Positions 3,803 to 61,866 of a DNA stretch of 62,085 bases are shown here, piece by piece. Position numbers and translations under genes: made by a program. Each line of letters opens with the position of its first letter. Within the stretch, counting starts at the first letter, position 1. Location: NCBI GenBank assembly GCA_016222905.1, contig JACRPZ010000055.1:1-62085 (forward strand). The letters are read 5' to 3'. The notes below the pieces were generated by a model that was not told the origin of the DNA, did no database searches, and saw only the letters and a program-made list of their open reading frames with translations. Source of the DNA: Nitrospirota bacterium. GTDB lineage: Bacteria > Nitrospirota > Thermodesulfovibrionia > UBA6902.

Positions 3803-5452
3803 TTATCTTGTCCTTCTTTTGTGCTGGTACATTAATCCATCAGCCTCTGAAAGCAGCTCGTCAATAGAACGGGGCTGCTTGGGGTCATATATTGTAAACC
3901 CATAACTCAACGATAATTCCCCTAACGGTTCATTGGCTTTATGATTATGTGTATTTAAATTTTCCCTCAAACGCTCAGCAAGAATTTCAATGTTAGTGTC
4001 AGGAGTATCCACTCCAAGCACAACGAACTCGTCCCCGCCTATACGGGCAACTATATCAGATTCTCTGAAAGTATCCTTCAGGATATTGGCAGTATTAATT
4101 ATTGCCATATCGCCTCTTTGATGCCCAACAGTGTCATTAATGATTTTCAGGAAATCAAGGTCCGCAGACATCAGAAACATTTTTTTATCTTCACGGTTAG
4201 CTAACTTTAATTGCTGCTCACTTAAAGCAAGAAAACCTCGTCTGTTGTATAAACCGGTGAGCTCGTCCGTTATTGACATAGAATAAAGCTTTTCCTCTGC
4301 TTGTTTAAGCATGGTAATATCTTTTGATATGACAGTTACAGATGTCGTTTTATTATTAAAATCTCTAACAGGACTTATTGTCTGAATAAAACACTTGCCG
4401 TCCCTGAAACTTTTATATTCATATTGAAGAGACTCCCCTGATTTGAAGACACTATCGGCTTTCTGAATAAATAATTCTGTCTCTTCAGGTGAATGAAAAT
4501 CGCTGTATGCTTTATTTGTATATTGTTCCTCTGACAACCCCAGCCTTAACAGATGTTGTTTGTTTATAAAAAGATACTTGTGATCAGCATCAACTAAATA
4601 TATGGAATCAGATGTACAATCAACCAGAGAACGATACTTTTCCTCTGACTGTCTCAAAGCAAATTCTGACTTCAGGCGTACCATGATCTCCTGTTTGAGA
4701 TTGGCAATGCTTGCTTGCAGCTCAGAGGCCATATTATTGAAGGCTGCGGCCAGAGCCCCTGTCTCATCATTGGCTTTTACATCTACCCTGTAACCATAGT
4801 TTCCTGATTCTATTGCTTTGGCCCCGATAGAGAGCATTTTAACGGGTTTCAGCACATTGGAAGCAATAATATTGATAGCAAATATCCCTATTCCCAGGAA
4901 TAGCAAGGTGATAAAAATAATTGCCCAGAGTGCCTGAGATATAGTCTTTCTGATACGGCTTTCTGAGATGCCCACATGGGCTGTGCCGAGGTCTTTGAAT
5001 AATCGGACAGCAAATTCCCGTATATAGCCATTTTCCGTATCAAGCAGCTTTGAAGAACATGCCTGTCCCGGAGCAGGAGTGTTAATTCCTTTAAGACCTG
5101 CAGGGAATCCGTCTTGAAAGGTGTGCGCCAGGACTTTACCTTTTGAACTGATGATATATATATATGCTATGTCTTCCTCATTTTTTTGCATGTCATCAAT
5201 AAGATTTTGCAGTTTTAATATATTCTGTGTGAGGATGAGGTCGGTTGCATTGGCAGAAAGATTTTTTGTGATAATAAGATTATGATGTTCAAGTTGATGG
5301 TTCAGGGTGTTAGTTAGTTCAATATATACGAATAGTGCTGTCAGAAAACCCAGAAGAATGATGACCGGGCTTATAGCAATAAGAAGCTTGGCCTTGAGTC
5401 CCACATTCAGAAAGCGGCTGTTAAATTTATCCGTTAAAGCGTCACTTTTCAT
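3803..5452 (-). CDS. Membrane diguanylate cyclase: sensor-HAMP-PAS-GGDEF
   Basis: A 549-residue inner-membrane protein predicted to make c-di-GMP. Transmembrane segments at about 21-43 and 174-196 enclose a periplasmic sensor region. HAMP follows (197-250), then PAS (268-383) and a GGDEF domain (390-547). The active-site GGDEF motif is intact at 472-476, and an RESD inhibitory I-site lies exactly five residues before it, so an active, product-inhibited enzyme is expected. The gene overlaps the upstream PhnD-like lipoprotein gene by 11 bases, so the two are translationally coupled. This suggests that the lipoprotein presents a ligand to the periplasmic domain. Confidence 0.9.
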   Translation of the reverse strand: MKSDALTDKFNSRFLNVGLKAKLLIAISPVIILLGFLTALFVYIELTNTLNHQLEHHNLIITKNLSANATDLILTQNILKLQNLIDDMQKNEEDIAYIYIISSKGKVLAHTFQDGFPAGLKGINTPAPGQACSSKLLDTENGYIREFAVRLFKDLGTAHVGISESRIRKTISQALWAIIFITLLFLGIGIFAINIIASNVLKPVKMLSIGAKAIESGNYGYRVDVKANDETGALAAAFNNMASELQASIANLKQEIMVRLKSEFALRQSEEKYRSLVDCTSDSIYLVDADHKYLFINKQHLLRLGLSEEQYTNKAYSDFHSPEETELFIQKADSVFKSGESLQYEYKSFRDGKCFIQTISPVRDFNNKTTSVTVISKDITMLKQAEEKLYSMSITDELTGLYNRRGFLALSEQQLKLANREDKKMFLMSADLDFLKIINDTVGHQRGDMAIINTANILKDTFRESDIVARIGGDEFVVLGVDTPDTNIEILAERLRENLNTHNHKANEPLGELSLSYGFTIYDPKQPRSIDELLSEADGLMYQHKRRTR

Positions 5453-6359
5453 TAAGAAATCTTTGCATCTCCCTTATGGAATCGTACGCGCTGTCCTCTG
5501 TCTCAACGAAGCGGTCTACCTTCACCTTCTCCAAAATAGAACGGCCTTCAGCATCAAGGTGCATATTAAGTAATATGTCACGCAGTTTTACTTTAAGTTC
5601 AGGCGCTATACTTGCAGGGATAACCACAGGGGGTATCCCGTACGGCGGGGACTTTATTATTACTTTGGTCTTGGATGTAAATTCAGGCTCCGTAGCATCG
5701 GCATAATCCCAGATAAGGGAGTCAACAGCAGCGCCGTCAACAAGATGCCTGGCAACAGCCTCTATGGATTTGTCATGACTGTTTGTATAGGTTATATCAG
5801 AGAAGAAAGATTCAGGCTTCTCCCCGATCTTGCCTATCATATAGGTGGGAGCAAGCTTGCCTGAATTAGACATCGGATCGGTGAACGCGAATTTCTTGCC
5901 CTTAAGGTCCTCAAGCCTCGTTGCCTTGCTGTCTCTGGGAACTATTATGTATGAATAGTAATAAGGCTTGCCGTATGCGATAGGCGCAACAAGCAGTTCC
6001 ATGCCGAAATCCCTCTTGCCGTCAATGTATGCACCGCTGCAGACAAAGGCCGCGGATATTTCTCTGTCCTTCACCAAAGCATTGACTTCCGCGTATGTAT
6101 CCCTCTGAACCAGTTCCACAGGCATCTCTAATTTCTTCGAGATGTAATCAAGCATATTGCTGTAATATATGAAGGTCTTTTTGGGTGATATTATGGCAGA
6201 GACCGCTATCTTCACGACCTCTTTTCCCATGTTCTGCTCTAATTGCTCCCGGTCTTTATTCAGGGATACCTTAGCGGCCTCCTCTTTTGTGCAGCCTGGA
6301 AAAAACAGGAATATGCAAAGAAATGCCAAAGGGAATATAAGTCTGTAGTTGTTTTTCAT
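5442..6359 (-). CDS. PhnD-like substrate-binding lipoprotein
   Basis: A 305-residue periplasmic binding protein of the PhnD/phosphonate-phosphite family, with segments such as AFVCSGAYIDGKRDFGMELLV and KGKKFAFTDPMSNSG. The start at 6359 is chosen because AAGGAG precedes it at 7 bases and because it yields a proper lipoprotein signal, hydrophobic residues 7-20 and lipobox FPGC with Cys23. A longer frame reaching 6389 lacks this support. No ABC permease or ATPase gene is adjacent; the partner is the overlapping GGDEF gene. It therefore probably works as a sensory ligand-binding subunit rather than in uptake. The ligand is unknown. Confidence 0.82.
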   Translation of the reverse strand: MKNNYRLIFPLAFLCIFLFFPGCTKEEAAKVSLNKDREQLEQNMGKEVVKIAVSAIISPKKTFIYYSNMLDYISKKLEMPVELVQRDTYAEVNALVKDREISAAFVCSGAYIDGKRDFGMELLVAPIAYGKPYYYSYIIVPRDSKATRLEDLKGKKFAFTDPMSNSGKLAPTYMIGKIGEKPESFFSDITYTNSHDKSIEAVARHLVDGAAVDSLIWDYADATEPEFTSKTKVIIKSPPYGIPPVVIPASIAPELKVKLRDILLNMHLDAEGRSILEKVKVDRFVETEDSAYDSIREMQRFLNEK

Positions 6360-6456
6360 GTTGTTTCTCCTTTGTTTCAATATTATCACATTTTAAGGGA
6401 ATTAGTGCATGGATGCAAATAGCAAAAAGATATGAAAAAGCAATATCAAGAATCTC

Positions 6457-15960: not shown

Positions 15961-16593
15961 ATGGAAGAGACCAGATACTGCTTATGCTGCGGAGAAGAGG
16001 TAACCTTTAACCGTGTAGAGCGCGAGGGCAAGGTTGAACTGACCTGTATGTTCTGCGGTTTCCCTCTCTCTTTTGAAGAAAAAACTATTGTGCCCATGCA
16101 AAATATTGCAGAGGAGACGGTGCAAAGACCCGCGGCAAAAGAGCCGGTCCTCGCATCCGGCGAAGCGCAGCTGCGTTATATACTTATGGCGGATGATTCA
16201 AAATTCACAAGAAAGATCATCAAAGATCTGCTGGTCGAAAAGAGGCTTGCAAATGAAATATTGGATTTTGAAAACGGTCTTGAGCTTACATCCGCTTTTG
16301 CAAAATTAATAACGGAAGGGAAGGCGGCGGATACCGCTATTATTTTGGATATTAACATGCCTGTAATGGACGGCATTTCTGCTGCAAAATTTATCAGGAA
16401 CATTGAATCAGAAAGAGGGCTGCCTCATGTACCGATAGCCTTCTTCTCATCAGTAAAGGCCGATGACAATTTAAGAAATACATTGGCAGAGCTGGCGCCG
16501 GCAAATTATGTAAACAAGTCTTCTGACCCCAATCCCGACAGGCTGGCTGAGAGAGTGGAGCAGCTTTTAACATATTTCATGCAAATGAAATAG
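15961..16593 (+). CDS. Zinc-ribbon plus receiver-domain protein
   Basis: A 210-residue cytoplasmic protein. The first 35 residues hold a Cys-pair ribbon (C7, C9 or C10, then C29 and C32 in CMFCGF), likely binding zinc or another metal. After a short linker comes a CheY-like receiver domain with MADDSKFTRK, phospho-acceptor aspartate in ILDINMPVMDG and the conserved lysine in YVNKSSDP. No output domain follows the receiver. It could be a metal- or redox-sensitive CheY-like adaptor; no kinase is adjacent, so the partner is unknown. Confidence 0.8.
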   Translation: MEETRYCLCCGEEVTFNRVEREGKVELTCMFCGFPLSFEEKTIVPMQNIAEETVQRPAAKEPVLASGEAQLRYILMADDSKFTRKIIKDLLVEKRLANEILDFENGLELTSAFAKLITEGKAADTAIILDINMPVMDGISAAKFIRNIESERGLPHVPIAFFSSVKADDNLRNTLAELAPANYVNKSSDPNPDRLAERVEQLLTYFMQMK

Positions 16594-36982: not shown

Positions 36983-37714
36983 TTATCTCTTTTCCGTCTT
37001 TATCTTAAGCGCTATGAGCATAACAATCCCTGCCATAAAGAGTATCCCGCCGGTCAGCGCCCAGACAGCGCCCGGCTCTCTGTTTATTTGCAGGAGAACC
37101 GCCTCGGTTGGGACAACCCTCATGTCTTTCAGATTTATGTTAAACCCCTCGTAAAGGGAGGGACTGTTGGGAGCTATCCGGTCTTCTTTTACCATATCAT
37201 TATTCAGATAATATTCTATCTTAACCGCCCAGTCATTTACATATCCGTCGGGGCTGAGTTGAATATTTATATCCTTAATAAGTACGGAATTGTTCTCGGA
37301 TATCTTCAAAAAAGTTCCTTCCCCTGCCGCAGCCATTTGCTGAGAACCTCCGATAGAGCTTAAGAGATGGGCAAGGAGTATGAATAGAAACCCGACGTGT
37401 ATTATTTGAGGAGAGATCAGGAGGAGCCATTGGGTCACCTTCCTCTTCTTTATGACGGATTCGATACTGCAAAAAAGCGTATTAATGACAATGATCGAGA
37501 GGATAGCTATAGACAGCCAGAGCCACCACGTAACAGTTAAAGGCTGTTCTATTAACCACTGAAAAAAAGAGGCCGAATGAATGGACTCGAACTCCTTCCT
37601 GCCCGGCATGATAAACGCGCCTGCAAGGAATGCGGCAATAAGGAGCGCGGTGAACCATATGGTTGTATTCAGTGAAAAGAAGAATCCGGTTATATGTCTT
37701 ATCAATGTTCTCAT
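36983..37714 (-). CDS. resB: Cytochrome c biogenesis protein ResB, short form
   Basis: A 243-residue inner-membrane protein with helices at about 17-36, 62-80, 102-122 and 215-235, and a periplasmic loop between the last two. It matches the ResB/Ccs1 family (NTTIWFTALLIAAFLAGAF; VGFLFILLAHLLSSIGG), which with CcsA forms the system II haem-transfer and ligation complex. Typical ResB proteins are about 400 residues or more, so this is a reduced form, with the large periplasmic domain shortened. It follows ccsA on the same strand. Confidence 0.82.
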   Translation of the reverse strand: MRTLIRHITGFFFSLNTTIWFTALLIAAFLAGAFIMPGRKEFESIHSASFFQWLIEQPLTVTWWLWLSIAILSIIVINTLFCSIESVIKKRKVTQWLLLISPQIIHVGFLFILLAHLLSSIGGSQQMAAAGEGTFLKISENNSVLIKDINIQLSPDGYVNDWAVKIEYYLNNDMVKEDRIAPNSPSLYEGFNINLKDMRVVPTEAVLLQINREPGAVWALTGGILFMAGIVMLIALKIKTEKR

Positions 37715-37865: not shown

Positions 37866-38576
37866 TTAAAAACTGTGCGAGCTCTTCATCAGAAGACTCA
37901 CCCCGAGATAAGTAAACATCACAACCGCAAAACCAGCAATGCCCAATATGGCAAGAGGCTTCCCCGTCCACCACTGCTTAAACTGAGCATGAAGGTAAAG
38001 CGTATAAAAGAGCCACAAAATGCTTGTCCATAGCTCCTTTGGAGTCCAGAGCCAGTATGTTCCCCATGCAAGATAAGCCCATATGCCGCCGAATATCATG
38101 GACATTGTAAAGAGGCAGTACCCTATGAGAATCGCCCTGTAACGCGGCCCTTCAAGGTATGTATTCTCTTCTTTCAGATGAAGATATGCCAATATCGCCG
38201 CAATCCCGAAGAGCGCGTAAGAGAGAAAGGCCAGCACCACATGTGTCTCAAACCAGAAAGTCTTTAAGACAGGCGGAAGGGGTGAATTATGCTGTTTTGA
38301 GATGAGGGCGATGACGGTAAAGATCGCCGCTGTTCCCGCTGTTAGGCGCTGGAACTGAATACGCTCCTTTAAAGCAGTGGCGAATGGAATAGAGAATGCC
38401 GCGATAGACGCGGCCAAAAAAGTGACCGTGTCATGCGGCCCGACAAGAGGCAGCCTGCCAAGATCAATGCCTCTTGAGATTATGTAAGCTGTTTGAATGG
38501 CAAGGCCTATATAGAGAAAAGGCCTTTTCCATAAGGCAAAGAGATAAAATGCAAAAGAGAGTATAAGTAGCAGCAT
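37866..38576 (-). CDS. ccsA: Cytochrome c biogenesis protein CcsA/ResC
   Basis: A 236-residue protein with about seven or eight transmembrane helices. It carries the haem-handling region WAYLAWGTYWLWTPKELW, and a conserved histidine in GPHDTVTFLA. The usual WWD motif reads WGxYWxWDPKE; here threonine replaces the aspartate. With ResB it would export and ligate haem to CxxCH motifs in the periplasm, serving cytochromes and the haem sensor kinase at 41822. It is upstream of resB on the same strand. Confidence 0.87.
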   Translation of the reverse strand: MLLLILSFAFYLFALWKRPFLYIGLAIQTAYIISRGIDLGRLPLVGPHDTVTFLAASIAAFSIPFATALKERIQFQRLTAGTAAIFTVIALISKQHNSPLPPVLKTFWFETHVVLAFLSYALFGIAAILAYLHLKEENTYLEGPRYRAILIGYCLFTMSMIFGGIWAYLAWGTYWLWTPKELWTSILWLFYTLYLHAQFKQWWTGKPLAILGIAGFAVVMFTYLGVSLLMKSSHSF

Positions 38577-38857: not shown

Positions 38858-39907
38858 ATGGCTGAACAAAGGGTAAAGAGGCTTTCTTTTATAGACAGAT
38901 ATCTCACCGTCTGGATATTCGCTGCAATGGCGTTTGGAGTGGGGCTCGGCTACTTTATCCCCGGTGTAGAGGGACTAATAAACAGCTTTCAGGCCGGAAC
39001 TACCAACATCCCCATCGCCGCAGGATTGATTCTGATGATGTATCCGCCTTTTGCCAAGGTAAGATATGAGGAATTAGGGGATGTTTTCAAGGATAAAAAA
39101 GTGCTTGGGCTTTCACTTATTCAGAACTGGATTGTCGGTCCTATTCTTATGTTTCTTCTGGCTATAATCTTTCTCCATAACTATCCTGAATATATGGCAG
39201 GACTGATCATGATCGGGCTGGCGCGCTGCATCGCCATGGTCATTGTATGGAATGAGATTGCAAAAGGGAACACCGAATACGCTGCCGGGCTCGTGGCCTT
39301 CAACAGTATTTTTCAGGTGCTTTTTTACAGCGTCTACGCCTATGTCTTCATCACGATTCTTCCGCCGCTCTTTGGACTTGAAGGGAACATTGTTCATGTA
39401 AGCATTGTTGAACTTGCAAAAAGCGTCTTTATATATCTCGGCATTCCGTTTATTGCCGGGATGCTTACCCGGTTCATACTGATAAGGGCCAGGGGCAAGG
39501 AATGGTACCATACTCATTTCATACCAAAGGTGAGTCCTGTTACCCTTATCGCGCTGCTATTCACCATTGTGGTCATGTTCAGTTTGAAGGGGAACCTTAT
39601 TGTTCAGATCCCGATGGATGTGGTACGCATTGCCATTCCGCTTATGCTCTATTTCATACTGATGTTCCTCGTCTCATTCTATATGGGGAAAAAAGTCGGC
39701 GCAGATTATTCCAAAACCACAACCCTCGCCTTTACCGCTGCAAGCAACAATTTTGAGTTGGCTATAGCGGTAGCTATAGCTGTCTTCGGCATTAATTCCG
39801 GAGCGGCGTTTGCTGCGGTAATCGGGCCGCTCGTGGAAGTGCCGGTGATGATCGGGCTTGTAAATGTTGCCCTCTGGTTTCAGCGGCGATATTTCAGAGC
39901 AATTTAA
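38858..39907 (+). CDS. acr3: Arsenite efflux permease, Acr3 family
   Basis: A 349-residue inner-membrane protein with ten hydrophobic helices. The Acr3 signature [18 protein letters not shown] contains the conserved cysteine of helix 4, and [28 protein letters not shown] is the second signature, in helix 9. It exports arsenite using the proton gradient. No arsR, arsC or arsD gene is adjacent, which is unusual for an ars locus. An AGGAGGTG box precedes the start. Confidence 0.93.
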
Positions 39908-39998
39908 CAAACTGCAAGAAGTGCATTTAAAATTCCCGATGATATATTTTTAGGTAAGAAGGCTTGAAGAATTGATATTTGCGGGAAGGCATCTGATG

Positions 39999-40016
39999 TG
40001 ATATATATATATATCA
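39999..40016. promoter_or_regulatory. Perfect AT-rich palindrome upstream of sufC
   Basis: TGATATATATATATATCA is an 18-bp perfect palindrome, ending 14 bases before the sufC start. It overlaps a possible -10 box (TATATA, with TTGCGG 17 bases upstream). It could be an operator for an iron-sulfur-sensing repressor, or simply a TA-rich promoter. Confidence 0.35.
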
Positions 40017-40030
40017 TAAGGAAGGCGAAT

Positions 40031-40747
40031 ATGTCATTCTTTGAAATCAAAGACCTTATATTTAAAGCAGGGGATAAAAAAATCCTCGATGGTCTTTCAA
40101 TTACCACAGGGCATTCAGAAATTCATGCCCTTCTCGGCACAAACGGAACCGGCAAGAGCACACTTGCTTATCTCATCATGGGATGTGAAGGTTACAAACC
40201 CGTGTCAGGAGAGATCATATTTGACGGTAAAGTTGTTAATGACCTGAAGATCCACGAGAGAGCACATCTCGGGATTACAATGGCATGGCAAGAGCCGGTG
40301 AGGTTTGAGGGGATATCAGTAAAAGATTACATCACGCTGAAAAACAAAGATGCCAATCCTTCCCACTATCTTGAAATGGCCGGGCTTCATCCTGCGTTTT
40401 ATCTGCAGCGAATGGTAGATAAATCTCTGAGCGGAGGGGAGAGGAAGAGGATAGAGCTTGCATCCATTCTTGCATTGAATCCGAAACTTGCAGTACTTGA
40501 CGAACCTGATTCAGGGATAGACATGCTCTCAACACAGGATATTATCAATGTTATAAATGCGTTTAAGAAAAATGGTTCAGCAGTGCTCCTGATTACCCAC
40601 AGAGAGGAAATCGCCCTGATAGCTGACAAGGCATCCCAATTATGCGGCGGGAAAATCGTGTGTTCCGGAAGTCCCGGAAAAGTTGCTGAATATTACAAAT
40701 CAAGGCAATGCCTTGTATGCAGAGATGAGGTGTGCGCGTATGTCTGA
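40031..40747 (+). CDS. sufC: Fe-S cluster assembly ATPase SufC
   Basis: A 238-residue ABC-type ATPase of the Suf system. Walker A is LLGTNGTGKSTL, the Q-loop region is MAWQEP, the signature is KSLSGGERKRIELAS, and Walker B is LAVLDEPDSGID. It binds SufB and powers cluster assembly. Start at 40031 (MSFFEIKDLIF) is supported by AAGGAAGG; upstream codons to 39998 are not homologous. The C-terminus carries an extra cysteine motif, CLVCRDEVC (C227, C230, C235), that ordinary SufC lacks. It overlaps the downstream SufB gene by 8 bases. No SufA, SufS or SufE gene is near, so this is the minimal two-gene type. Confidence 0.9.
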   Translation: MSFFEIKDLIFKAGDKKILDGLSITTGHSEIHALLGTNGTGKSTLAYLIMGCEGYKPVSGEIIFDGKVVNDLKIHERAHLGITMAWQEPVRFEGISVKDYITLKNKDANPSHYLEMAGLHPAFYLQRMVDKSLSGGERKRIELASILALNPKLAVLDEPDSGIDMLSTQDIINVINAFKKNGSAVLLITHREEIALIADKASQLCGGKIVCSGSPGKVAEYYKSRQCLVCRDEVCAYV

Positions 40748-41675
40748 GATAGATAATTTAATCAAGGCAGTCGCTGAAGCGGGCGGGGACAAGGGAATTC
40801 TTGCAAACAGCGATATTGCCCATCTTGCGGTAAACGAACACAAGATATTAAGCGCGAATAAAGTTGAAGGCATTGAGGTGGAGGCAAAAGAGACTCTTAC
40901 AGGCATTGAGGCAAAGGTTATTGTTCTGGAAGGGATGAAAATAAAGAACCCTGTGCACCTCTGTTTTGGAGTCCTTCATAAAAGAGGCACTCAGGAAATA
41001 AAGATGGATGTGAGGCTTGAGAAAAACGCCTCCGCCAGTTTTATCGCGCACTGCATATTCCCGAATGCTGAGAATGTGCGGCATATTATGGACGCAGTAG
41101 TTGAGATTGGAGAAGGAGCGGAGATGAGATATTCAGAGACCCATTATCACGGAATGCACGGAGGGGTTGAGGTTATTCCGAAGGCGGTTGTGAAGGTTGG
41201 AAAAAACGGAAGATATTTCACCGACTTCAATCTTACTACCGGGAGGGTCGGAAGGCTTGAAATAGACTATTCCGTTACAGCAGATGAAAACGCTGTGACT
41301 GAATTGACAGCGAGGGTATTCGGTCATGCTAACGATGATATCCATATAAAGGAAAAGGTTGTGCTTGCAGGCAGAAACTCAAGAAGCATCATAAAGACCA
41401 GAGTTGCCATAGAAGATGACGCACAGGCTGAAGTTATCGGCATCACTGAAGGATGCGCCGAAGGCGCGCGGGGCCATGTGGACTGTATGGAGATAATAAA
41501 GGATAAAGCAGTTGCAAAGGCAATTCCCATTGTATATGTTACGAACCCTTTAGCCAAGGTGACCCATGAAGCTGCAATTGGCAGTGTTGATAAGAAACAA
41601 ATGGAGACGCTCATGGCACATGGGTTGTCTCCTGAAGAGGCGGTTGATGTGATTGTGAAAGGGATACTGAGATAA
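40740..41675 (+). CDS. sufB: Fe-S cluster assembly scaffold SufB/SufD
   Basis: A 311-residue beta-helix scaffold of the SufB/SufD family. The C-terminal signature is KVTHEAAIGSVDKKQMETLMAHGLSPEEA, given here in parts: THEAAIGSV and GLSPEEA. The short length and lack of a separate SufD match the minimal SMS-type (SmsCB) systems of anaerobes and archaea. The ATG at 40740 lies within the sufC end. A longer frame to 40683 overlaps sufC and has no support. Confidence 0.88.
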   Translation: MSEIDNLIKAVAEAGGDKGILANSDIAHLAVNEHKILSANKVEGIEVEAKETLTGIEAKVIVLEGMKIKNPVHLCFGVLHKRGTQEIKMDVRLEKNASASFIAHCIFPNAENVRHIMDAVVEIGEGAEMRYSETHYHGMHGGVEVIPKAVVKVGKNGRYFTDFNLTTGRVGRLEIDYSVTADENAVTELTARVFGHANDDIHIKEKVVLAGRNSRSIIKTRVAIEDDAQAEVIGITEGCAEGARGHVDCMEIIKDKAVAKAIPIVYVTNPLAKVTHEAAIGSVDKKQMETLMAHGLSPEEAVDVIVKGILR

Positions 41676-41821: not shown

Positions 41822-43621
41822 ATGAAAGGTATGTTCGGACATATCACAAAATCCCTTGCCGGCAAACTCATTATTGCCATAGGGCTGATTATTCTAATCG
41901 GAGGCGGCATATCATGCTATATATTGCTTAGCGCCGGAAAAAGAAATCTCATAAACAATGCGATCAGGAATACAGCCTCATACTCTGACCTGATTAAAAA
42001 GAGCACCCGGTTCAGTATGCTTACCTTTCACAAAGAGTCCATACAGCAAACCATAAACAGTGTGGGCTCCGCAGAGAATATTAAAGGCGTGAGGATTTTT
42101 GACAGTAAGGGAAAGATATTATATTCTTCCTCACATGAAGAAATAGGGCATATGGCTGACAGAAGCTTGCCTGCGTGTACAGGCTGTCATAGTGATTCTG
42201 ACAAGCCGTCCATAACCTTAAAAACCGAAAACCAGTGGACAATTTATACAGGCAGTGAAGGATACAGGCTTCTGAACTTTGTTGACCCCATCTACAACGA
42301 GCCTACCTGCTATACCTCAGCCTGCCATGTCCATCCTCAGGAGCAAAAGGTCCTGGGCATCCTTGAAACTAACTTCTCACTCTTCTCTGTTGATGAAAAT
42401 ATCCGGAAGCAAACCATAGAGATAACCATCTATGCCGTTATCTTTATGAGTATAAGCTCCATAATCCTGTATTTTGTCCTGCGAAGATTCGTGCTTAAAC
42501 CTGTTTCAACTCTTTCATCCGCCATGAAAAAGGTTTCAGAAGGTGATTTAGAGCATAAAGCCTTAATAGACTCAAAGGATGAGATGAGACTTCTTGCCGA
42601 TACTTTTAATCTAATGACTAAAGACCTTAAAACAGCAAGAAAGAAGATGGAGAACTGGACTAAAACCCTTGAAGATGAAGTTGCCAAGAAAACAAGCGCA
42701 TTAAAAAACTCGCAGGACAAGCTGATACAGGCGGAAAAACTGGCATCTCTGGGCAGGCTTACAGCAGATGTAGCCCATGAAATAAGGAATCCCCTTACCG
42801 TAATAGGCGGTTTTGCCCGCAGACTATACAAAATTGCCTCCGGTGCAAAAGAAAGGGAATATTCAGAGCTTGTGGCAGCAGAAGTGGAGAGGCTTGAGAA
42901 GATATTAAGAGATGTCCTGACATTTTCAAGAGACGCGCGCTGCCATCTTGAAAGGCATGATATTACAGAGGTTATCCGCGATACGCTAAAGATGTATGAG
43001 GACTTTTGTGATGACCAGTCCATTAAAATGGAGGTGCAAGAGGCGGAAAATCTTCCATTAGTCCTGATAGACAGGGACCAGGTTATGCAGTCCATCGGCA
43101 ATCTTATCATAAACGCAATAGACACAATGTCCGGCGGAAGCATAAGAATAACGTCAGGCAAAGAAGATCTGCATAATGTGCCTTATGTATTTATAAAGGT
43201 ATCTGATACGGGCAAGGGTATTCCTGCAGATAAGCTGCCATTTATATTTGAGCCTTTCTTTTCTACAAAGGAGATAGGTCACGGCACAGGGCTCGGACTT
43301 TCAATAACAAGAAAGATCATAGAGGAGCACGGCGGGTTTATAAGAGTAGAGAGCATTGAAGGCAAAGGCTCCGTATTCACCCTGTATTTTCCGTATCAGA
43401 GCGAAGAGGAATCATTAAAAATAAAATGCTGGGAGTATATGGAATGCTGCAGGGACAAGGATGCGACAATTAAATGCCCTGCCTATTCCAATTTTGGTCG
43501 AATCTGCTGGGCAGTGGCAGGCACATTCTGCGCGGGAAAGGTGCAGGGGACCTTCGCCCAGAAATACGAGGACTGCAGGAAGTGCAAGTTCTATCAGGGA
43601 GTGAAGAACAGGGAGATATAA
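41822..43621 (+). CDS. c-Haem sensor histidine kinase with C-terminal two-CW domain
   Basis: About 599 residues. Transmembrane helices at about 16-38 and 201-221 enclose a periplasmic domain with two c-type haem motifs: CTGCH (119-123, CxxCH) and CYTSACH (163-169, CX4CH). HAMP follows, then the phosphoacceptor LTADVAHEIRNPL, and an HATPase with LIINAIDTM, DTGKGIP and GTGLGLSIT. The last 60 residues are Cys-rich: CWEYMECC, CPAYSNFGRICWAVAGTFC, and CRKCKFYQG, the pattern of the two-CW domain. It should sense redox or gas ligands, and the C-terminal domain may bind a metal or cluster. Start ATG 41822 has no ribosome binding site; 41831 is an alternative. It precedes the Kef gene by 12 bases. Confidence 0.88.
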   Translation: MKGMFGHITKSLAGKLIIAIGLIILIGGGISCYILLSAGKRNLINNAIRNTASYSDLIKKSTRFSMLTFHKESIQQTINSVGSAENIKGVRIFDSKGKILYSSSHEEIGHMADRSLPACTGCHSDSDKPSITLKTENQWTIYTGSEGYRLLNFVDPIYNEPTCYTSACHVHPQEQKVLGILETNFSLFSVDENIRKQTIEITIYAVIFMSISSIILYFVLRRFVLKPVSTLSSAMKKVSEGDLEHKALIDSKDEMRLLADTFNLMTKDLKTARKKMENWTKTLEDEVAKKTSALKNSQDKLIQAEKLASLGRLTADVAHEIRNPLTVIGGFARRLYKIASGAKEREYSELVAAEVERLEKILRDVLTFSRDARCHLERHDITEVIRDTLKMYEDFCDDQSIKMEVQEAENLPLVLIDRDQVMQSIGNLIINAIDTMSGGSIRITSGKEDLHNVPYVFIKVSDTGKGIPADKLPFIFEPFFSTKEIGHGTGLGLSITRKIIEEHGGFIRVESIEGKGSVFTLYFPYQSEEESLKIKCWEYMECCRDKDATIKCPAYSNFGRICWAVAGTFCAGKVQGTFAQKYEDCRKCKFYQGVKNREI

Positions 43622-43633
43622 AAAAATATTCTT

Positions 43634-45625
43634 ATGGCGGAGTTTGAATTTCTCAAATCTCTCATTATCATTTTAGGGGTCTCCGCTGTAGCCTTATTTA
43701 TCCTCAATAAGTTTAGGATACCGTCAGTTGCGGGATTTCTGATCGCGGGCATCCTGATAGGGCCTCACGGCCTTGAGCTTATTAAAGATCTCCGTCTTGT
43801 CGAGATATTCGCTGAGATCGGGGTTGTGCTTCTCCTCTTTACAATCGGCCTTGAGTTTTCGCTTAAGAAATTGCTTGCCCTCAGAAAGACGATATTCATC
43901 GGCGGGTTACTGCAGGTTCTGATAACCTTTCTGATTGTTCTTGCCATTTCAAACTCACTTGGAAGAGATATAAACACATCCTTAATACTTGCCTTCCTTA
44001 TCCCTCTGAGCAGCACTGCGATAGTGATGAAACTGCTCTTTGATAGGGCGGAGATAGATTCCCCGCACGGCAGGATAAGCCTCGGCCTTCTGATATTTCA
44101 GGATTTCTGCGTTGTTATCTTTATGCTGATGATCCCTCTCCTTGCGGGCGGTGATAAGGGGGTGAAAGAGATAGCATGGGTTCTGGTCAAATCCGCCGCC
44201 ATTATAGCAGCCGTTATAATCTCCGCAAGGTGGCTGGTGCCGCGGGCGCTCCATCAGATCGTGCATACAAAGATGAGAGAGCTATTTATCATCAGCATCA
44301 TCTTTATATGCCTCGGAGCAGCCTACCTTACTTACCAGCTCGGACTCTCCCTTGCGTTAGGCGCATTTATAGCCGGGCTCATAATATCGGAATCCGAATA
44401 CGCCTATCAGGCAATCTCTGACATCCTGCCTTTCAAGGAGAGCTTCAACGGATTGTTCTTCATCTCAGTAGGAATGCTCATGAATTTCAACTTTTTTATC
44501 TCAAACTTTTCTGCTGTAATGCTGGCTGTGCTGGTCATAATTCTGCTGAAGACCATTACATCCACAATCGCCGTTTTTATTATAGGGAGCAACTTGCGGG
44601 TCTCTCTTCACAGCGGATTAATTCTCTCGCAGATAGGCGAGTTCTCTTTTGTCCTTGCAGTCGCAGCATTAAAGGCCAATCTTATCACAGAAGGAACCTA
44701 TCAATACTTTCTATCAACCGCGATAATAACCATGCTGCTGACCCCTTTATTTCTCTATATATCCCCGCAGGTCTCAATATGGGTAACATCCCGCAAACTG
44801 CTCGCAAGGCTTCAGGAGACGAAGGCATTTACGGAGACGTCAAAGGCAACGGATAGAAAGAACGACCATGTCATAATTATCGGATTTGGAATTAACGGCA
44901 GAAATCTTGCCTTGGTATTAAAGGATCTTGAAGTGCCTTATGTGATTCTTGAGATGAACAGCCGGACGGTTTCCAAATGGCGTAATGAAGGAGAGCCGAT
45001 CTTCTACGGCGACGGCACCAGTCAGGAGATACTGCAAAAACTTGGGATAAGGAGGGCAAAGGCTGTTGTTGTCTCCATCTCTGATCCTTCTGCCGCAAGA
45101 AAGATAGTAATGACTGCGCGCAAGGCAAATCCCGGGGTCTATCTTGCGGTTAAGACAGCTTATCTTGCCGAGGTTCAAGACCTCTTGGCCATAGGAGCTG
45201 ATGAGGTCATACCGGCAGAATTCGAGACATCCATCCAGCTTTTTTCAAGAGTGCTTCAATTTTATCACATGCCAAAAACCTTGATAGATAAGTACGCCGG
45301 AAAGTTCAGAAAAGACCATTACAGGCTCTTTGTCAAGGGCGAAACGCCGAAGAGGCTCTTCCATGACACCATCGCGGTCATGCCGGATGTTGATTATGAG
45401 AGCCATGTTGTTGAAAAGGGCTCTCCTTCAGAGGGACGCTCTGTTAGAGAACTTGATATACAGCAAAAGACAGGCGCGCATATGATCGCGGTAAAAAGAG
45501 GAGAGGAGACTATCAAGGGGCTGCTTGCCGACCTCATATTCCAGGAGGGGGATATAGTCTTTCTTATAGGCGACAAGTCCTCTCTCGAAAACACTTACAG
45601 TTTATTCTTCAAGAGCAAGCCGTAA
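43634..45625 (+). CDS. Kef-type cation/H+ antiporter (CPA2) with RCK domains
   Basis: A 663-residue inner-membrane protein. The first 385 residues form about 12-13 helices of the Na+/H+ exchanger fold (GFLIAGILIGPHGLELI; FTIGLEFS). A Rossmann RCK/TrkA-N domain follows, starting VIIIGFGINGRNLALVL, and a TrkA-C domain ends the protein. Family members exchange K+ or Na+ for H+ under nucleotide or redox control. Location 12 bases after the haem-sensing kinase suggests co-transcription, so ion flux may respond to the same redox cue. Confidence 0.92.
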   Translation: MAEFEFLKSLIIILGVSAVALFILNKFRIPSVAGFLIAGILIGPHGLELIKDLRLVEIFAEIGVVLLLFTIGLEFSLKKLLALRKTIFIGGLLQVLITFLIVLAISNSLGRDINTSLILAFLIPLSSTAIVMKLLFDRAEIDSPHGRISLGLLIFQDFCVVIFMLMIPLLAGGDKGVKEIAWVLVKSAAIIAAVIISARWLVPRALHQIVHTKMRELFIISIIFICLGAAYLTYQLGLSLALGAFIAGLIISESEYAYQAISDILPFKESFNGLFFISVGMLMNFNFFISNFSAVMLAVLVIILLKTITSTIAVFIIGSNLRVSLHSGLILSQIGEFSFVLAVAALKANLITEGTYQYFLSTAIITMLLTPLFLYISPQVSIWVTSRKLLARLQETKAFTETSKATDRKNDHVIIIGFGINGRNLALVLKDLEVPYVILEMNSRTVSKWRNEGEPIFYGDGTSQEILQKLGIRRAKAVVVSISDPSAARKIVMTARKANPGVYLAVKTAYLAEVQDLLAIGADEVIPAEFETSIQLFSRVLQFYHMPKTLIDKYAGKFRKDHYRLFVKGETPKRLFHDTIAVMPDVDYESHVVEKGSPSEGRSVRELDIQQKTGAHMIAVKRGEETIKGLLADLIFQEGDIVFLIGDKSSLENTYSLFFKSKP

Positions 45626-58495: not shown

Positions 58496-60385
58496 ATGCG
58501 CTACGTTATTCTCGGAACAGCAGGGCACATTGATCACGGCAAAAGCGCGCTTGTCAAGGCGCTCACGGGTACTGACCCCGACAGGCTCAAAGAGGAGAAG
58601 GAGAGGGGCATCACAATTGACCTCGGCTTTGCAGACCTCTCATACCCTGACGGCCTTAAAGTAGGTATCATTGATGTTCCGGGGCATGAGCGCCTTATTA
58701 AGAATATGCTCGCCGGGGCAGGCGGGATTGATATCGTCCTCATGGTAATCGCCGCTGATGAAGGGATAATGCCGCAGAGCAGGGAACACCTCGCCATATG
58801 CAATCTTCTAAAGGTAAAGAAGGGCATTGTTGCCGTAACAAAATCCGACCTCGTTGATAAGGAGTGGCTTGGTCTTGTCACAGAAGAGGTGAGGGAGTTT
58901 GTAAAGGGGACATTTCTTGAGGATGCGGAGATAATGGGCGTATCGTCAAAAACAGGCGAGAATCTTGCACTCTTAAAGGAGAAGATAAAGGCAGCGGCTT
59001 CGGGAGTTGAACCGAAGCATGAGAAGGCTATCTTCAGGCTCCCTGTTGACAGGGTTTTTACTCTTAAAGGCTTCGGCACGGTTGTCACAGGCACATCTGT
59101 TTCAGGAAGCATCGGTATAGATGACGCTGTTGAGATACTTCCCGGCGGAATGATGACAAAGGTCAGGGGCCTACAGAGCCACGGCCAGACAATAGATAGG
59201 GCGTATGCCGGACAGAGAGTTGCGGTGAATCTGCAAGGGGTCTCAAAGGATGACATACAGAGAGGTGATGTGCTTGCAACGCCGGGCAAGATCAAGCCTT
59301 CATATATCATTGATGCAGGAGTTGAACTGCTTAAGGATTCCGCAATACCTCTTTTAAAGAACAGGAGCCTTGTACATTTCCATTCAGGTTCGTCCGAGAT
59401 GACCGGCAGGATAATTATTTATGGAAACGAATCGCTTAAGGCTGGCGAGAGCGCATTATGCCAGTTCAGGTTCCCAACTCCGGTTGCGCTGGTAGCAGGA
59501 GACAGATATATAATCAGGCGGTTCTCTCCGCTTCAGACAATAGGCGGTGGCGAAGTGCATGACCCCTCGCCCAAGCGGAGGAAGAAGCAGGAGGATATAG
59601 AAGGGCAGAATATATTTTGGGAAGGGAGCCTCACGGAGAAGCTCTCGGCAAAAGTTCTTCAGAAAGGCATATACGGAATAGCGCCACAGGAGTTTGAGGG
59701 ATGGATAAAGGCCGACCTTCCCGATATCAAATCAGCGGTCGCAGCCCTTGTTAAAGAAGGGGAAGTGATTATATGCGAAGAGAGGCTCATACATAAAGAT
59801 ATTTTTGATGATTTTTCAGCGGGGATCATCGCACTTCTCAAAGACTTTCATTCCAAAAACCCTCTTAAGCCGGGGATGCTGAAAGAGGAGCTTAGGTCAT
59901 CTTTTCAGGGTATAGAGCAGAGGCTCTTTGACGGGCTCCTTGCCAAGGTCAAAGATATTGTCGTTGATAAAGATATCATAAGATCAGGCTCATTCAGGCT
60001 CTCCCTGAGCGAGGGTAACAAGGAAACAAGAGAGAAGATACTTAAGGCCATTGATGCCGCGGAATTTCAGCCCCCTACAGATGAAGAACTTGCCGCATTG
60101 GTCAAGGTTGATAAAAAAGAGGTGAGCGAGATACTGAAGATAATGGCAAAGGAAGGGATACTCGTAAGGATAAAGGATTCTATATATATTTCAAAGTCCA
60201 ACCATGCAAAGATGATGGAGAAGTTGAAGGGGTTTTACGCCAAGAAAGCGGAAATGACTGTGGGCGAGTTTCGTGACATACTTAACACATCAAGGAAATA
60301 TGCATTGCCTTTTCTCGAGTATCTTGACAGCAACAGGATAACGATGAGGGTCGGGGATGTGAGGAAGCTTCTTTTTAAGGGATGA
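58496..60385 (+). CDS. selB: Selenocysteine-specific elongation factor SelB
   Basis: Delivers Sec-tRNA to UGA codons marked by a SECIS hairpin. The 629-residue protein has the GTPase motifs GHIDHGKSAL, ERGITIDLGFA, DVPGHE and TKSDL, then the translation-factor beta barrels (FTLKGFGTVVTGT). The C-terminal winged-helix repeats that bind mRNA close the protein (about 400-629). The ATG at 58496 has no strong ribosome binding site. It is 1.4 kb upstream of the tRNA-Sec gene. No selA or selD is in the window. Confidence 0.95.
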   Translation: MRYVILGTAGHIDHGKSALVKALTGTDPDRLKEEKERGITIDLGFADLSYPDGLKVGIIDVPGHERLIKNMLAGAGGIDIVLMVIAADEGIMPQSREHLAICNLLKVKKGIVAVTKSDLVDKEWLGLVTEEVREFVKGTFLEDAEIMGVSSKTGENLALLKEKIKAAASGVEPKHEKAIFRLPVDRVFTLKGFGTVVTGTSVSGSIGIDDAVEILPGGMMTKVRGLQSHGQTIDRAYAGQRVAVNLQGVSKDDIQRGDVLATPGKIKPSYIIDAGVELLKDSAIPLLKNRSLVHFHSGSSEMTGRIIIYGNESLKAGESALCQFRFPTPVALVAGDRYIIRRFSPLQTIGGGEVHDPSPKRRKKQEDIEGQNIFWEGSLTEKLSAKVLQKGIYGIAPQEFEGWIKADLPDIKSAVAALVKEGEVIICEERLIHKDIFDDFSAGIIALLKDFHSKNPLKPGMLKEELRSSFQGIEQRLFDGLLAKVKDIVVDKDIIRSGSFRLSLSEGNKETREKILKAIDAAEFQPPTDEELAALVKVDKKEVSEILKIMAKEGILVRIKDSIYISKSNHAKMMEKLKGFYAKKAEMTVGEFRDILNTSRKYALPFLEYLDSNRITMRVGDVRKLLFKG

Positions 60386-61767: not shown

Positions 61768-61866
61768 GGGAGCGTTTAGGGTTCTGGTGTCTCTCCCGGA
61801 CTTCAAATCCGGTGTTGCCTGGCCAAAACCGGGCATGGTGGGTTCGATTCCCACACGCTCCCGCCA
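61768..61866 (+). tRNA. selC: tRNA-Sec (anticodon UCA)
   Basis: A 99-base selenocysteine tRNA. It has the unusually long 8-bp acceptor stem GGGAGCGT/ACGCTCCC, an anticodon stem CCGGA/TCCGG with loop CTTCAAA and anticodon TCA at 61803-61805. The long variable arm TGCCTGG/CCGGGCA is followed by the T arm GTGGG-TTCGATT-CCCAC. G73 and CCA are encoded. All features fit bacterial SelC, charged first with serine. selB lies upstream, with corA between. Confidence 0.96.

Follow-up and report, generated by a model that had tools for sequence, protein, structure and literature searches.

What does a histidine kinase sense when it carries two cytochrome c-type haem motifs between its transmembrane helices and a cysteine-rich domain behind its ATPase, and does the antiporter encoded next to it take part in the response? 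The question is raised by a gene in a 62,085-nucleotide stretch of Nitrospirota DNA (the window), contig 38 in a genome of 2.84 Mb. A sequence-only reading of the locus had proposed that the kinase could combine a periplasmic redox or gas signal with a cytoplasmic metal or thiol signal, and that the antiporter may be regulated with it.

Domain organization and the periplasmic sensor

The starts of relatives (MNGPFRHITKSLAGKL in locus L046, MNPLFRHITKSLAGKL in locus L049) align with the ATG at 41822, and the kinase is therefore 599 rather than 616 residues long; the longer, mechanically called open reading frame begins at a TTG (41771) that the relatives do not support. The domains follow one another in the order transmembrane helix, periplasmic domain, transmembrane helix, HAMP, HisKA, HATPase and two-CW.

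41822–43621, + strand: predicted dihaem Cache histidine kinase with two-CW tail, 599 aa
41867–41923, + strand: transmembrane helix 1, residues 16–34 (hydropathy)
41924–42421, + strand: periplasmic single-Cache sensor domain, residues 35–200 (model, Foldseek, profile match to 3b47/3b42)
42017–42019, + strand: Met66, predicted distal ligand of haem 2 (invariant; aligned with GSU0935 Met60, PMC8396549)
42176–42190, + strand: haem motif 1, CTGCH, residues 119–123, predicted additional haem (invariant)
42308–42328, + strand: haem motif 2, CYTSACH (CX4CH), residues 163–169 (aligned with CXXCH of GSU0582/GSU0935)
42332–42334, + strand: His171, possible further haem ligand (invariant)
42422–42478, + strand: transmembrane helix 2, residues 201–219 (prediction)
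42476–42631, + strand: HAMP domain (PF00672, E 7e-12)
42749–42931, + strand: HisKA domain (PF00512, E 4e-14), with phospho-acceptor His319 at 42776–42778
43070–43399, + strand: HATPase_c domain (PF02518, E 8e-25)
43424–43609, + strand: two-CW cysteine-rich domain (NF045718, 61–62 bits)

The HAMP, HisKA and HATPase_c matches each exceed the Pfam cut-off and, with His319 and intact N, G1 and G2 boxes, the protein is a sensor histidine kinase. Both haem motifs fall in the segment bounded by the predicted transmembrane helices, that is, in the periplasmic domain where they had been placed at first sight, and both are conserved in close relatives.

To assess this conservation, the N-terminal 233 residues were used as query against 230 genomes of the class. 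Matches at E up to 1e-5 were found in 189 of them, the weaker ones perhaps not all being two-haem sensors. We aligned 35 close family members, this kinase included, together with one distant sequence, L068. Residues C119, C122, H123, C163, C168 and H169 of the motifs, as well as M66 and H171, are kept in all 35 close members, and CX4CH is present in 35 of the 36 aligned sensors, the outlier L068 having CxxCH at that place. The conservation of both motifs throughout the close members indicates that they did not arise by chance.

A profile built from the 36 sensors gave 3b47 (GSU0582, E 5e-5) and 3b42 (GSU0935, E 2e-4) as its top structure matches; the relationship is remote and consists of two partial alignments of 8 and 15–17 bits. 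In this profile alignment, the CX4CH of the family falls on the CXXCH of GSU0582 and GSU0935, and CTGCH is a predicted haem site additional to theirs. Met66 aligns with residue 26 of the 3b42 chain, which is Met60, as calculated from the haem-binding His144 at chain position 110. In GSU0935, one haem has Met60 as its sixth ligand, and this methionine has been proposed to act as a switch by being released upon oxidation (PMC8396549). The AlphaFold model of the sensor, computed without haem, is a single Cache fold (pLDDT 82.7) in which the short helix carrying CTGCH links strand 2 to strand 3. Its best Foldseek matches in the PDB are WalK, KinD, DctB, CitA and GSU0935, the last at rank 11 with an E-value of 7.5e-5 and an rmsd of 14 Å, a large deviation that perhaps results from a domain-swapped crystal.

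Covalent attachment of haem to the periplasmic domain is very likely, given the invariant motifs, their periplasmic site, the kinship to crystallised c-haem sensors, the conserved methionine, and the system II cytochrome c maturation genes found in the same window:

37866–38576, − strand: CcsA-type cytochrome c assembly protein (PF01578, E 2e-34)
36983–37714, − strand: ResB-like cytochrome c assembly protein (PF05140, E 2e-5, slightly below the cut-off)

The haem-bearing periplasmic sensing suggested by the sequence-only reading is thus likely. To our knowledge, c-haem Cache domains are a large sensor class that was recognised only recently and whose characterised members carry one haem. The two-haem Cache form described here is conserved and widespread in Nitrospirota and represents an uncharacterised family. 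The presence of two haems is not in itself new, since an additional haem motif was noted earlier in PAS-like periplasmic sensors of Geobacter (GSU0591 and GSU0599) and Anaeromyxobacter (Adeh_2011 and Adeh_3383) (PMC3831638).

Two kinase forms and the two-CW tail

Relatives of the sensor occur in kinases of two forms: a long form of about 600 residues with the two-CW domain and a short form of about 530 residues without it. This genome encodes one long-form and two short-form members. The cores of the long form share 50–70% identity with two-CW kinases whose sensors differ (dCache, multi-helix membrane or none predicted), but only 34–41% with the short dihaem kinases, close to the 35–39% shared with unrelated kinases of these genomes. 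In the kinase-core tree, all two-CW kinases, whatever their sensor (dihaem, dCache, multi-helix or none), fall on one side of a branch with 100/100 support, and the short dihaem kinases fall on the other. As judged from these sequences, the two-CW tail goes with the kinase core and not with the sensor. Because the sensor and the core-plus-tail each have different partners, domain exchange most likely brought the two together.

The surroundings of the short form are strikingly uniform. NuoD is encoded within 6 kb in 12 of the 14 short-form loci and a receiver protein in all 14; in several of them, DRTGG, PHP and HATPase proteins follow, along with a receiver–GcvH-like protein and a receiver–NuoE-type [2Fe-2S] fusion. 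In 12 of the 14 short-form loci (the 14 being L066 and L067, on G000 contigs 70 and 57, respectively, L069–L075 and L081–L085), the kinase gene and nuoABCD-type genes are arranged head to head, with the genes for the receiver, HATPase, DRTGG and PHP proteins downstream of the kinase; this arrangement represents a conserved locus in which a redox sensor adjoins complex I. The fusions at L067:7276-8145 and L073:2443-3411 join a receiver (Response_reg, E 6e-32 and 5e-29, respectively) to a NuoE/HndA-type [2Fe-2S] thioredoxin-like subunit (PF01257, E 3e-49 and 6e-50) and are clustered with the dihaem kinase; here phosphorylation possibly acts directly on an electron-transfer enzyme. A 255-residue protein of the same clusters (L074:587-1354) combines a receiver with a glycine cleavage H-like domain. 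With this branch located beside complex I and receiver-fused NuoE genes, periplasmic redox control of respiratory electron entry becomes testable. None of the 21 long-form loci contains NuoB, NuoD or receiver–NuoE genes near the kinase; long-form neighbours are varied, and the complex I setting belongs to the short form rather than to the gene under study.

The separate cysteine-rich domain that had been noticed behind the ATPase is a clear member of the two_CW_domain family NF045718 (62.1 bits in HMMER, cut-off 35). Seven of its cysteines are invariant in the 21 long forms, and six are invariant across 40 domains that include stand-alone ones. Proteins consisting of the two-CW domain alone are common, and three are encoded in this genome. 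Other two-CW kinases have multi-helix, dCache or no predicted membrane sensors and are mostly orphans (L102, L103, L105, L106, L108, L111, L112, L114, L092). We found no relative of the domain in the PDB and no account of its function, nor any paper devoted to it, in the literature searched; the structure model is of low confidence (pLDDT 53), too low to assign a fold from it. The two-CW domain thus appears to be an unstudied cysteine domain that occurs alone or on kinases with very different sensors.

Two roles of the tail can be weighed on these data. It may be a structural or docking domain with no sensory role, such as a zinc knuckle for binding a response regulator or another partner. The retention of the domain with the core as sensors change, even in kinases with no predicted membrane sensor (L102, L103, L111), is consistent with docking, which we regard as a serious possibility, if not quite a probable one; the common stand-alone proteins suggest, however, that the domain acts without a kinase, and a sensory role is possible. 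More tentatively, and rather doubtfully, the kinase might read the periplasmic potential through the dihaem Cache domain and cytoplasmic thiol, iron or metal status through two-CW, firing for certain combinations only; this speculative scheme jointly supposes that evolution put an existing dihaem sensor onto an existing two-CW kinase.

The antiporter and the genomic neighbourhood

The gene downstream of the kinase encodes a potassium/proton antiporter with Na_H_Exchanger, TrkA_N and TrkA_C domains.

43622–43633, + strand: gap between kinase stop and antiporter start, 12 bases, no terminator
43634–45625, + strand: CPA2 (KefC-like) antiporter with RCK domains, 663 aa, a neighbour only (PF00999, PF02254, PF02080)

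Against the KefC equivalog NF002924, the protein scores 323 bits and does not reach the cut-off of 752; it is a CPA2-type antiporter with RCK domains that is not assigned to the glutathione-gated KefC. As noted before, it begins 12 bases past the kinase stop, and a terminator search between the two genes returned no terminator-like site, so local co-transcription in this organism is possible. The idea that the antiporter is regulated with the kinase is not supported by a survey of gene neighbours, in which the adjacency appears in this genome alone. Antiporters of the family are found in 126 of 229 genomes of the class (E up to 1e-60). A Kef gene adjoins the kinase in one of the 21 long-form loci, namely this one, and in none of the 14 short-form loci. 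We also inspected the eleven nearest homologues of the antiporter. In ten of them the upstream gene could be read and is never a two-CW kinase; the eleventh, in genome G214, is cut at a contig end, with the long-form kinase on another contig. In genome G224, the antiporter and the kinase lie about 11 kb apart on one contig. The search turned up no second genome of the same genus, and on these counts across more distant relatives the antiporter was rejected as a conserved partner. Because the adjacency is unique to this genome, the Kef link is unsupported as a system, and on the gene order the proximity of the two genes looks accidental.

The same counts bear on an extended version of the initial proposal, a dual-compartment sensor that integrates periplasmic haems with a cytoplasmic metal- or thiol-responsive two-CW domain and has the Kef antiporter as its output. 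Both modules are real, and the genes lie close together on one strand without a terminator. Nevertheless, the rarity of the adjacency, the separation of the two genes in G214 and G224, and the fact that the target of a kinase is normally a response regulator and not a transporter make this version highly improbable.

No response regulator is encoded beside the kinase, as previously remarked, and we find this to be a general trait of the long form; long forms, like other two-CW kinases, are mostly orphans. NtrC-type regulators are encoded within 6 kb in 7 of the 21 long-form loci, each adjoining a different kinase. A conserved response regulator next to the long form was rejected, since the NtrC-type regulators sit with their own kinases; the homologous pair of this genome is on contig 23. 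The kinases at L051:10612-12633 and L049:11630-13654, whose dCache domain carries a CxxCH motif (CLNCH and CFNCH), belong to another family that is paired with an NtrC-type regulator, and contig 23 of this genome carries such a pair as well.

Several other genes near long-form kinases were recorded. At L053:5026-14343, the kinase is near ArrA-like, ArrB-like, ArsD, ArsR-type and ArsM-like genes; at L047:13611-16193, it is near an ArrA-like gene; and an ACR3 arsenite transporter is encoded upstream of the kinase in the window (38858-39907). The arsenic link is real in the two loci L047 and L053 and is not general for the long form. Directly upstream of the kinase, the window contains a pair of SufC-like and SufB/D-like genes (39998-41675); the nearest named model of the SufB/D-like gene is SmsB, of a SUF-like minimal system, far below the cut-off. 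Elsewhere in the window are a receiver domain preceded by a rubredoxin- or zinc-ribbon-like segment at the N terminus (15961-16593); a gene for a phosphonate-binding-like protein, recognised by eye, that overlaps a HAMP-PAS-GGDEF gene (3803-6389), the two perhaps encoding a ligand-binding protein and the diguanylate cyclase that goes with it; and a selenocysteine tRNA (61768-61862) about 1.4 kb downstream of a gene recognised by eye as SelB (58496-60385).

Proposed signal and relation to known sensors

Taken together, these comparisons make it probable, with appreciable room for doubt, that the gene encodes an orphan membrane-bound histidine kinase whose single-Cache domain senses the redox state of the periplasm by means of two covalently attached c-type haems. 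The redox reading is supported by the short-form paralogues, which have the same sensor in an electron-transport context, that of complex I. By analogy with GSU0935, haem 2 (CX4CH, His169) would have Met66 as its sixth ligand; oxidation would loosen this ligand and shift the N-terminal helix, and the shift would be passed through transmembrane helix 2 and HAMP to alter autophosphorylation of His319. The added haem 1 (CTGCH, His123) may relay electrons to haem 2 or adjust its properties. The two-CW tail would be a separate metal- or thiol-binding module that adds a cytoplasmic input or a docking surface, and the response regulator of the kinase would be encoded elsewhere.

The main rival to the redox reading concerns the signal. 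In Pseudomonas azotoformans, a c-haem Cache domain with a signalling role binds NO tightly (PMC12889525), and the signal of our kinase could therefore be a gas: ferrous haem 2 would bind NO in place of Met66, and the kinase would switch. Such domains can bind NO selectively (PMC12889525), and respiratory reductase genes (ArrA-like, at L047 and L053) are found close to several long forms. In contrast, PF11845 is only distantly related to the family (7 of 36 members, best E 0.005), the conserved methionine occupies the ligand position, and the setting of the short form beside complex I favours redox. We therefore consider NO sensing unlikely, while noting that the redox and gas readings of the dihaem kinase can both hold.

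Among known systems, the Geobacter chemoreceptors GSU0582 and GSU0935 (3b47 and 3b42) resemble the sensor in having a periplasmic Cache/PAS-like domain with a haem motif at the same place, and GSU0935 also shares the conserved methionine at the axial ligand position. They differ in having CXXCH rather than CX4CH at the shared place, no counterpart of the second haem motif, and a chemoreceptor output instead of a histidine kinase. The best Pfam match of the sensor is Mcp40H-20_sensor (PF21563), which is detected in 31 of the 36 relatives at E up to 1 (best 1.3e-6), whereas the kinase itself scores 19.9 bits, below the cut-off of 27. With sCache_heme (DUF3365/Tll0287, PF11845; PMC12889525), the sensor shares the Cache fold, a cytochrome-like haem motif and fusion to signalling modules, but the kinase lacks a canonical CXXCH at the shared place and has two predicted haem sites; membership in PF11845 was rejected, the kinase giving no match at E 1 and seven of the 36 relatives matching at E up to 1, with 0.005 as the best value. 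GSU0591, GSU0599, Adeh_2011 and Adeh_3383, likened here by their description only, share the extra haem motif in a PAS-like periplasmic sensor. Finally, ZraS/AtoS-type sensor kinases are closest to the kinase core in both NCBIfam and the PDB (9jfj, ZraS), although the core scores far below their equivalog cut-offs and the sensor and tail are unrelated to theirs.
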